In this document: positions 15,704-23,120 of the stretch, piece after piece
Position numbering within the stretch: position 1 is the first letter of the stretch
How the letters are laid out: the number at the start of each line of letters is the position of its first letter
From: Alphaproteobacteria bacterium
GTDB taxonomy: Bacteria > Pseudomonadota > Alphaproteobacteria > Thalassobaculales > Thalassobaculaceae
Assembly: GCA_013203465.1 (NCBI GenBank)
Contig: JABMNR010000078.1
Span: 1-45,512, forward strand
DNA length: 45,512 nt
Direction of reading: 5' to 3'
The notes under the pieces: generated by a model
What the model saw: the letters and a program-made list of their open reading frames with translations, nothing else
Database searches by the model: none
Told to the model about the DNA's origin: nothing
Position numbers and translations under genes: made by a program

Positions 15704-15829
15704 CGCGGCGGCACCAGATAAAAAATGGAGCGGGCGAGCTGCGTTTGGTGTCTGGACGACGGCTGCGCCCGAGCATCCGTCGCCGCTCGATCCCGCCTGC
15801 CTACCATCGCTTCCAAGGGGAGGACTTCC

Positions 15830-16853
15830 ATGAAACGCGTTCAACATCACCGCTTCGACGATTTAACCGATCCGGCCACGCGCGACACCGACGCGCCCGT
15901 CTCGCCGAGCCGTCGGTCGTTCCTTGCCACCGCCGCCGCGCTCGCGGCGACCACGGCGGCCGCGTCGGAGGCGCTGGCCCGGAGCTATGGCCCCGGCGCC
16001 GATCCGGTTCACTACCCCGACCCGGATATCGTTGTGCTGGACCCCCGGTTTAAGGCCAAGCTCGGCAACACCCCGATCCAGCGGCTGTATACCGGAACGC
16101 TGTGGGCCGAGGGGCCGGCCTGGAACGGTGTCGGGCGGTATCTGCTGTGGAGCGACATCCCGAACAACGAGCAGCTGCGCTGGATCGAGGAGGATGGCCA
16201 TGTCTCGCGGGGCTTCCGCGCGCCGTCGGGCAACAGCAACGGCAACACCTTCGATTACAGCGGGCGGCAAATCGCTTGCGAGCACCTGAACCGTCGCGTG
16301 GTGCGCTACGAATACGATGGATGGCTCGATCACCGTGCTCGCCGAGACGTTCGAGGGCAAGGGCTTCAACGCGCCGAACGACGCGGTGGTGCACCCCGAT
16401 GACGGCTCGATCTGGTTCACCGACCCAGGATACGGCCAGTTGATGAACTACGAGGGACGGCGCGCCGGTACCGGCTCGGTTCAGCCGTTCATGAAGGAGG
16501 CGGTGTACCGGATCGACGCGAACACCGGCGCCATCACCAAGGTGGCCGACCAGCCGTTCAAGCCGAACGCCCGTACTTTTGCCAGCATGGAATTCAACGG
16601 CAAGACCGGCTTCGCCGACGGTATCCGCTGCGACGAGGATGGCAACGTGTGGTCGTCCGCCGGCTGGGTCGGCGACGGCTATGACGGGGTGCACATCTTC
16701 CACCCCGATGGCACCCGGATCGGCCAGATACGCTTGCCGGAAATCTGCTCGAACGTCTGCTTCGGCGGCACCAAGCGCAACCGGCTGTTCATGACCGCCA
16801 GCCAGTCGTTGTACGCGGTCTTCGTCGAGACCAAGGGGGCGCACATTACCTGA
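15830..16853 (+). pseudogene. Tat-exported SMP-30/gluconolactonase-like gene, frameshifted
   Basis: The gene starts at ATG 15830 behind a perfect ribosome site (AAGGGGAGGA). A twin-arginine signal, SRRSFLATAAALAATTAAA, directs export of a folded product. The first frame gives SMP-30-type text (LYTGTLWAEGPAWNGVGRYL, LLWSDIPNN, NGNTFDYSGRQIACEHLNRR) up to RYEYDG near 16317, then continues out of frame to a stop at 16402. The second frame resumes exactly there with SITVLAETFEGKGFNAPND, WFTDPGYG, FADGIRCDEDGNVW and GGTKRNRLFM, ending at 16853. ATGG is repeated at 16317-16320 and 16321-16324; removing one copy restores one frame of about 340 residues. The family hydrolyses sugar lactones with a bound metal. 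It could be a recent inactivation or a sequence error. Confidence 0.85.
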
Positions 16854-19937: not shown

Positions 19938-20477
19938 TCAATCGCGAACCGCGACGATGCGTTGCTTGACGGCCGGGTGAGGCTCCCGTTCCTCCAAATC
20001 CTCGAAGGCGATTACCCGAAGTTCCGGCCGCACCGCGACCAGGAGTTCCTCGTGCCGTAACAGATGGTCCGGATTGGCCGGTCGTCCGAAGGCCTCGTTG
20101 CCGATGGCGAAGGTTTCGTAGATCAGCACGCCTCCGGGCGCCACGGCGGCGACGATGTCCGGCATTACCGGCCGGTGCAGATAGTTCACGACCACCACCC
20201 CGGCGAAGGCCTGCTGAGACAGCGGCCATGGCCGGCCGGTCTCCAGATCGCGGGCGACAATCTCGACACCGTCAAGGCTCGCCATGTCGGTGATGCGGGT
20301 GATGTCCACATCCAACAGCACCACCGGGTGGCCGCGCGCATGGAAAAACCGTCCGTGCCGGGCGGCGCCGCACGCGACATCCAGCACGGTTCCGCCGGTC
20401 GGTATGCGATCGGCGAACCGCCGTACCCAGGATATGGGCGGTTCGTTCGCGGCGTAGCGATGAGGGGTCAGCGCCAT
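19938..20477 (-). CDS. Small SAM-dependent methyltransferase (TehB-like)
   Basis: 179 residues, a single Rossmann methyltransferase domain. The SAM site is GTVLDVACGAARHGRFF, followed by an acidic residue at the end of strand two (VVLLDVDI) and FAGVVVVNYLHRP. Overall it resembles TehB/thiopurine-type enzymes, but the substrate is unknown. The ATG at 20477 begins two bases after the stop of the transaminase-SDR gene; a TTG at 20483 overlapping that stop is also possible. Tight spacing implies coupled translation. The two genes together interrupt an otherwise conserved plus-strand gene order. Confidence 0.85.
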   Translation of the reverse strand: MALTPHRYAANEPPISWVRRFADRIPTGGTVLDVACGAARHGRFFHARGHPVVLLDVDITRITDMASLDGVEIVARDLETGRPWPLSQQAFAGVVVVNYLHRPVMPDIVAAVAPGGVLIYETFAIGNEAFGRPANPDHLLRHEELLVAVRPELRVIAFEDLEEREPHPAVKQRIVAVRD

Positions 20478-20479
20478 GG

Positions 20480-22594
20480 TCAACCCGCCGTCTCGGCCGG
20501 CACCCGGGCGCCGGTGAAGGAACAGAGAGGGCTTGCCAGGCGCACGAAGGCGTCGGTCATCGCCGACGGAAGTGGCAGACGGTTCGGATCCTCCTCGGGG
20601 AAGGCCGCCGCACGCATATCGGTGCGCACCTCGCCGGGGTCGATCAGATTGACGCGGATCGCGGTATCCCGGGTCTCGGCGGCGTAGGCGCGGGCCAGCG
20701 CCTCAAGTCCAGCCTTGCTCGCGGCATAAGGCGCCCACCGCGGCACCTCGCCGTCGGCCGCGCCGGAGGTCACCAGCAGTACCCGTCCCGCCGCCGACGC
20801 GCGCAGCAGCGGATCGAGCGCGCGGATCAGCTGGAACGTCGCGGTCAGATTGGCGGTGACCACCGTGTCGAACCCGTCATCGGTGATCTCGGGCAACGGT
20901 GCCAGATCACCCAAGACGCCATGGCTTGCCACCACCACATCGAGGTTGCCGAGCTTTGAGGCGATCCGGTCGCTCAACCCGGCGACCGCGTCGGCGTCCG
21001 TCAAATCGATGGCCAGGGTCGCGGCTTGGCCACCGGCTTTCCGGATTCGTTCGGCAACGGTGTTTAGCAAGGATTCCGATCGAGCGGCCAGCACCACCCG
21101 CGCACCCTCGGCGGCATAGCGTTCGGCGACGGCGGCACCGATTCCCCGCGACGCCCCGGTGATCAGACAGGTCAGCCCCGCCAACGCCCGGCCTCCGGCG
21201 GTGGCCTGCGCCAGGTCCTGGTTGGCGGCCACCAGCTCGATTTCGCGTGCCACGCCGTCGAGGACGCTGGCGAGGGTGTCCACTATGCGGTCGATCTCGG
21301 CATGGCTCACCACGAATGGTGGCCCGATCACCAAGGCATCGCGGACGGCGCGCAGGATCACGCCGCGCTGTTGCATCTGAGTGCGTACCACCGCCCCGAC
21401 GATGCCCGACGGCTCGAACAGCAGACACGGCGTGCGTTGCTGTACCAGTTCGACGGCACCGATCAAGCCGATCGATCGGACCTCGCCGACCAAAGGATGA
21501 TCGGCCAAGCGGGCAAGGGCATTGGCGAAATACGGCTCCAGATCGTCACGAACGCGCTCGATCAGCCCTTCACGCTCGATGATCGCCAGGTTTTCCAACG
21601 CCACCGCCGCCGCGACCGGATGGCCTGCATTCGTGAAACCGTGGGCGAGGTCACGGCCCTTGTCGATCAAGGTGCGCGCCACGCGCTGGCCGATCATCAC
21701 GGCGGAAATCGGCTGGTAGCCGGAGGACAGGCCCTTGGCGAGCGCCATGAAATCGGGCGTGAGGCCGAACCGCTCGGCCGCGCTCCACGCGCCCAGGCGG
21801 CCGAAAGCGCTCATCACCTCGTCCAGGACGAACAGCACGTCGTGACGCCGGCAAATGTCCTGCACCCGTTTCAGGTATCCGGGTGGTGGGATGATGACGC
21901 CGCCGGCGGCTTGAACCGGCTCGATCACCACGGCGGCCACGGTCTCGGCGCCCAGTGCCTCGATCTTCGCCTCGATCCAGCCGGCGGCGACCTCCGCGAA
22001 AATCTCCGGATCGGTGTCGGGAGCGTACTTGAAGGCGTAAGGGGCATCGACATGCTCGAACCCCGGCAGCGGCAACCGCCCCTGGGCCTGCATGGCCGGC
22101 ATGTTTCCAAGGCTGATCGTGGCCAGGGTGGAGCCGTGATACCCTTCCTCCCGGCCGATCATGATCCATTTGTCCGGCTTACCCTCCAGCGCCCAGAAAT
22201 GCCGGCAGAATCGCACGATGCTGTCGAGCGCCTCGGAACCCGAATTGGCGAACACCACGTGATCGAGGCCGTCCGGCATCAACTCCGCCAGCTTGCCGGC
22301 GAGGGCGGCCGTCGGTGGTGTCGTCGTCTTGAAGAAGGTGTTGTAGTAGGCCAGCTTTTCCATCTGCTGGGCGGCGGCCCGGGTCAGCTCCTTGCGGCCA
22401 TAGCCGACGTTCACGCACCACAATCCGGCCATGGCGTCGAGATAGGTGTATCCGTCCTCATCCGTCAGCGTTCAGCCTTGGCCGGATTCGATGACGGTGG
22501 GCCCACCCTCCTCGATCAGCACCTTGGGGTCGGTGAAGGGGTGCAGGTGATGGTCCCGATCAAGCCGGGCCAGCGTGGATCGGCGCTTGGTCAT
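20480..22594 (-). pseudogene. Class III aminotransferase fused to short-chain dehydrogenase, with in-frame TGA codon 41
   Basis: The gene begins at ATG 22594 behind GGGAG. Codons 1-40 encode a normal omega-transaminase N-terminus (LDRDHHLHPFTDPKVLIEEG). Codon 41 is TGA (22474-22472). The same frame then reads on as TLTDEDGYTYLDAMAGLWCV and stays open for another 663 codons. The aminotransferase domain (to about residue 455) resembles pyruvate or putrescine transaminases: NSGSEALDS, GYHGST, DEVMSAFGR and PLP-binding Lys287 (ALAKGLSSGYQP). The SDR domain follows from about residue 470: TGASRGIG (479-486), Ser610, Tyr623 and Lys627. A second ATG at 22432 could give a product lacking 54 residues. 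Nonsense mutation, sequence error or recoding are all possible; the fusion itself also deserves checking. Confidence 0.85.
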
Positions 22595-22685
22595 GGCGCT
22601 CCCTAGAACCAGCGACAATTCGGGAAAAACTGGATCATTGCCGTGTTGCGCCTATATTACGCCGTGTCGAAAGGGCTTACGAACG

Positions 22686-23120
22686 ATGATCTTATATTCC
22701 CTGCGCTGCGCCAAAGACCATGAATTCGATGGCTGGTTTCGTGACAGCGCCGGATTCGACGAACAGTGCGAATCGGGTTTCCTCGCGTGTCCCACATGCG
22801 GCTCGACCGAGGTGTCGAAGGCGCTGATGGCGCCGCGCGTGATGAGCTCGAAGGAGGCTTCGGTCACGATATCCGCGCAGGCCAAACAAGCCATGCCGCA
22901 GGCGGTCGAACTGAAACGCAAGCTGCTCGCCCTGCGTCGCGCGGTCGAGGAGAACTGCGACTATGTCGGTGGCGGGTTCGCCGAAGAGGCGCGCAAAATC
23001 CACTACGGCGAAGCCGAAGCGCACGGGATCTATGGCGAGACAACTCCGGACGAAGCCGAACGCTTGCGCGAAGAAGGCGTGGAGTTCGGCGCTATCCCCT
23101 GGGTTCGCGAGGACACCTAA
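22686..23120 (+). CDS. DUF1178 family protein
   Basis: 144 residues. The N-terminus MILYSLRCAKDHEFDGWFRD followed by CESGFLACPTCGSTEVSKAL is characteristic of DUF1178, with Cys residues arranged like a small zinc ribbon. The C-terminal half (VEENCDYVGGGFAEEARKIH and ETTPDEAERLREEGVEFG) is also conserved in the family. Function is unknown. The frame is open to 22575, but the ATG at 22686 gives the family N-terminus. In related genomes the gene often follows the nitrilase-family gene directly; here 2.8 kb separate them. It ends 3 bp before the convergent ubiG stop. Confidence 0.9.
   Translation: MILYSLRCAKDHEFDGWFRDSAGFDEQCESGFLACPTCGSTEVSKALMAPRVMSSKEASVTISAQAKQAMPQAVELKRKLLALRRAVEENCDYVGGGFAEEARKIHYGEAEAHGIYGETTPDEAERLREEGVEFGAIPWVREDT

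Follow-up and report, generated by a model that had tools for sequence, protein, structure and literature searches.

The closest described relatives of the first part of the gene analysed here are class III aminotransferases of the putrescine and omega-transaminase kin, represented by the NCBIfam family PRK07480 (NF005682) and the solved putrescine aminotransferase 6gwi, from which this gene differs by a C-terminal short-chain dehydrogenase (SDR) and by a nonsense codon at position 41. The aminotransferase-SDR fusions of Thalassobaculum fulvum and other genomes of the same family resemble it in both domains, in length, in their neighbouring genes and in up to 77% sequence identity, but are open, with no stop at codon 41. 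With single-nonsense recent bacterial pseudogenes it would have in common, provided that the base is real, one stop that is not shared by relatives and the lack of any other damage. Bacterial selenoproteins are similar in that an in-frame TGA stands opposite a Cys of near relatives, but they differ in that neither selenocysteine machinery nor a SECIS-like fold was found here and in that the site is not a conserved Cys. A literature search on aminotransferase-SDR fusions identified no paper by title.

The window, i.e. the whole analysed stretch of 45,512 nucleotides, is contig C61 of a draft genome of 4.48 Mb in 238 contigs, for which a completeness of 100 and a contamination of 2.49% are given. 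The relevant features are (window positions):

20480..22594, minus strand: interrupted gene, a fusion of a class III aminotransferase and a short-chain dehydrogenase (Pfam and NCBIfam; full-length open relatives in 12 genomes)
22472..22474, minus strand: in-frame TGA at codon 41 (frame read; 14 relatives without a stop at codon 41)
22475..22594, minus strand: codons 1-40 ahead of the TGA, the entire product expected from ordinary translation (frame read)
20480..22432, minus strand: 650-aa open frame from the ATG at codon 55, the first start codon past the TGA
20482..20480, minus strand: terminal stop TGA (codon 705) of the interrupted gene
19938..20483, minus strand: downstream neighbour, methyltransferase-like, conserved
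22575..23120, plus strand: divergent neighbour, DUF1178, conserved (mechanical frame)

The interrupted frame (22594..20480, minus strand) starts with an ATG at 22594 and comprises 704 codons, among which the TGA at codon 41 (TCA at 22472-22474 on the plus strand) is the sole internal stop. AGGGAG, a possible ribosome site, has its 3' end four bases ahead of this ATG. Re-reading of the frame confirmed the counts given in a first-pass annotation of this DNA (codon 41, 704 codons, 663 further codons) and its statement that conservation continues straight past the stop, as aminotransferase sequence picks up again immediately after the TGA. Read through the stop, residues 33-445 match Aminotran_3 (PF00202) over profile positions 11-403 of 403 with 280 bits (cut-off 30.5), so that the whole domain lies above the curated cut-off, and residues 5-453 match PRK07480 with 600 bits (cut-off 510). 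Residues 476-667 match adh_short (PF00106) with 161.8 bits (cut-off 26.6). The motif AKGL at 286, which we take to hold the PLP lysine, is kept, as are TGASRGIG at 479 and YAASK at 623, presumably the nucleotide-binding and YxxxK motifs of the SDR part. Ahead of the stop, residues 10-40 can be aligned with solved transaminases, the closest of which, 6gwi, aligns over residues 10-460 and has Val at codon 41. The fusion may possibly constitute a two-step enzyme that converts amines to aldehydes or ketones, which would then be reduced.

A search across 61 genomes (the host genome and 60 others) revealed full-length fusion relatives with 56-77% identity in 12 other genomes (L025-L036) and partial ones in two more (L037, L038), which end at or near contig edges. 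Translation of 15 loci, own gene among them, showed no stops in the relatives other than terminal ones (L025, L026). The first-pass annotation had considered that homologues might lack the first 54 residues and start at the later ATG. This did not prove to be the case: alignments of all 12 full-length relatives begin at query residue 1-10, and a misannotated start with the true start at codon 55 was ruled out, as the relatives keep the first 54 residues. The neighbourhood was compared in 13 distinct loci, which remained of 15 relative loci after removal of the duplicates L054 and L055; L038 was left out. The fusion gene is flanked by DUF1178 in 13/13 and, at its other end, by the methyltransferase in 12/13, the thirteenth locus (L037) being cut by a contig edge on the methyltransferase side. 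The same neighbours across relatives indicate that the interrupted gene is a conserved chromosomal gene and not a stray copy. The true start of the DUF1178 gene probably lies inside its mechanical frame.

Taken as read, the sequence points to a real and very recent nonsense change at codon 41 of an otherwise normal, conserved fusion gene, to which we assign a probability of roughly 0.6. The stop is absent in relatives and the remainder is undamaged, as would be expected of a recent nonsense pseudogene. A single nonsense change would have arisen at codon 41, too recently for other decay to accumulate. Ordinary translation would halt after 40 residues, which would make this a fresh loss-of-function allele, perhaps confined to one strain. 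The base would then be real in the cell and the gene off. Such a loss might plausibly be tolerable given eight other class III aminotransferases in the genome (Aminotran_3 matches), one of which is 55% identical to the interrupted gene.

To date the lesion, we counted amino-acid changes unique to one genome versus another with an outgroup. Against Thalassobaculum fulvum (L025), these relative-rate counts were 51:52, 50:50 and 50:51 (own gene first; outgroups L027-L029), and a separate pairwise version over the whole protein gave 51:53, 50:50 and 50:51; with the more distant outgroup L030 the count was 55:39, indicating faster change here. Against L026, the counts were 45:59, 49:55, 50:58 and 55:42. 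In two genes next to it, the host genome has slightly more changes (20:16, 21:12, 22:12 and 15:7, 15:9, 14:8), so that the interrupted gene is, if anything, steadier than its surroundings. It carries 8 changes at columns that are invariant in the other 12 sequences, compared to 0 in L025, 3 in L026, between 0 and 3 across the eight relatives that are closely sampled and, further off, 25 in L030 and 36 in L031. These 8 changes are expected of a lone branch without a close sister, yet theirs is the sole count that tends towards decay. The 704-codon frame contains no other stop and no frameshift, and the gene has probably been under constraint nearly until now. An old pseudogene finds no support in the relative rates.

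When the window and 20 stretches of 20 kb from the same genome (445.5 kb in total; the stretches were hand-picked, not random) were scanned for codon bias, the TGA at codon 41 ranked second among 3826 stops with 30 open codons on either side. Its nearest possible restart is 14 codons downstream, compared to 4, 3 and 6 codons for the stops ranked first, third and fourth, which look like gene junctions. The 6 stops listed by a stricter scan, which required 40 open codons and used a higher threshold, did not include this TGA. Elsewhere in the genome, internal stops were found in 0/117 ABC_tran matches (150 of 194 first-look candidates scored) and in 0/8 other Aminotran_3 matches.

These figures bear on the possibility that the gene of the organism is intact and that the TGA stems from a consensus or assembly error or from a mixed sample with two alleles. 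Damage artefacts of the G-to-T type are known to occur in sequencing. One substitution would suffice for an error, since the two best-scoring relatives both have TGC at codon 41, one base from TGA, and the lack of other damage and the flat relative rate are in line with it; in addition, the assembly is a draft in 238 contigs with 2.49% contamination, and many relatives in the clade are metagenome-assembled genomes (MAGs). On the other hand, the rarity of inner stops in the ABC_tran and Aminotran_3 matches suggests that the assembly is not generally sloppy, and direct evidence of an error is absent from the analysis. Literature searches on oxidation artefacts or single-stop pseudogenes in MAGs returned nothing concerning the interrupted gene. 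We regard an error or a strain mixture as less likely than a real change, but an error of the draft consensus would fit the observations equally well. Whether a one-base loss of function or an assembly error, the change is of small import: it concerns a single genome and, within it, 1/9 class III aminotransferase genes. Its value is that of a worked negative, as selenoprotein searches look for just this pattern, a Cys/TGA pair within a frame that is otherwise perfect.

That pattern is what speaks for selenocysteine or another true recoding of UGA: the nearest relatives have Cys at the site, and Cys/TGA pairs are used in selenoprotein searches according to PMC9312934. None of the 14 relatives has a stop at codon 41; 9 have Cys (L025, L026, L031-L037), encoded by TGC or TGT, and 5 have Ser (L027-L030, L038), encoded by AGC or TCG. 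In a wider survey, the first 130 residues were compared with 66 loci, 56 of which cover residue 41; two of these rows are the own gene and two are duplicates, leaving 52 distinct others, six of them paralogues from the same genome. The residues at the site were V 12, C 10, S 9, A 9, T 7, I 2, P 2 and L 1, which agrees with the earlier remark that the replaced residue is often a Cys or small. By this alignment, the site tolerates a range of small residues, an argument against a residue that requires selenium; neither Cys nor Sec is conserved across the 52 rows.

The machinery for selenocysteine insertion, for which the first-pass annotation had suggested a search, was likewise not found in the host genome. 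Profile searches gave no match for SelA, 7 matches for SelB (best 133 bits, cut-off 242) and 3 for SelD (best 57 bits, cut-off 125). There were 9 tRNA-Sec matches, none above the cut-off of 47; the best (46.9) is a tRNA-Ser(CGA) by ARAGORN, which placed eight of these matches among the Ser, Tyr, Leu or Gly tRNAs; the remaining one overlaps a tRNA-Met. In the controls, which included E. coli, SelB exceeded its cut-off in 2/14 and SelA in 1/14. Over 41 genomes, SelB was above cut-off in 3, one of them from the same family (G015), and the SelB search can thus succeed in this clade. None of SelA, SelB, SelD and tRNA-Sec was thus found above cut-off in the genome, of which the draft may lack pieces. 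No anticodon UCA was present among the 36 host tRNAs, and a UGA suppressor tRNA was rejected on the same list, which is an incomplete set: tRNA-Glu and tRNA-Ile are missing from it despite the stated completeness of 100. Some tRNAs have thus escaped the draft or the search, and stretches that carry tRNAs are probably absent from the draft, so that little weight can be placed on the lack of any single RNA. A tRNA at a contig end (L114, G000:C133:55900-56101) was typed by ARAGORN as Asp with anticodon ATC and is probably cut or mistyped. In one Thalassobaculum paper, a Sec tRNA is assigned to another organism, and searches of the literature for Thalassobaculum with selenocysteine found nothing concerning the interrupted gene.

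RNA folding past the TGA was unremarkable as well. For three stretches that begin at the TGA or shortly ahead of it, folding was no better than for shuffled sequences (z +0.52 to +1.20), and Rfam matches up to E 10 comprised two weak irrelevant ones and no SECIS family. No stem-loop was thus found directly after the UGA, in line with the earlier impression that there is no obvious selenocysteine hairpin. As some bacterial SECIS elements deviate from the consensus, according to PMC9312934, a missing stem-loop alone is not decisive. TGA is also the commonest stop of 168 long non-overlapping frames sampled from the 445.5 kb (94 TGA, 38 TAA, 36 TAG) and the terminal stop of the interrupted gene itself. 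Genome-wide reassignment of TGA was ruled out, as it ends 94/168 long frames and the ABC_tran matches have no inner stops. Recoding is argued against by the lack of selenocysteine machinery, by the tolerance of the site and by the flat relative rate, and we consider it very improbable. From the options offered by the first-pass annotation, a recent nonsense change and a sequencing error hence stand, while recoding is disfavoured by machinery, anticodon and fold. Low-level and perhaps regulated reading of the UGA in this lineage, whether through leaky decoding as Cys or Trp or through an undescribed route, is hardly credible; if true, it would mean that the amount of enzyme is set by read-through where relatives carry Cys.

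It may also be speculated that some enzyme is kept by a useful bypass, either through re-initiation at the ATG of codon 55 or through near-cognate read-through. The in-frame ATG lies 14 codons downstream of the TGA and the frame beyond the TGA is constrained, but the recency of the lesion accounts for this constraint equally well. Moreover, this ATG lacks a Shine-Dalgarno-like run at the usual spacing, the nearest being a GAGGA 22 bases upstream, and residues 1-54 are kept in the relatives. In related transaminases, the N-terminal part contributes contacts to the dimer and the active site, as described in PMC6308316 and PMC6861513. A product from ATG 55 would lack the N-terminal dimer and active-site residues and is not expected to be an active enzyme. 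Overall, we judge a bypass to be improbable and retain the recent nonsense change as the preferred reading.

The interrupted gene is not the only broken one in the window. A gene similar to SMP-30/gluconolactonase (15725-16853, plus strand) is split over two frames, with the frame shift located at a tandem four-base repeat, GATGGATG (16316-16323). Further on, 42 residues that are present in three compared relatives are gone in frame. Homologues in four family genomes have long open frames (421-436 aa). Two lesions of such a kind do not amount to a single base-call error. They show that real gene loss occurs in this genome, which favours a real change at codon 41.

Finally, a tandem glycine riboswitch was detected in the window at 2480-2691 on the plus strand (58.9 and 43.6 bits). 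The frames that follow it resemble a glycine-cleavage gene set, as judged by order and size only.
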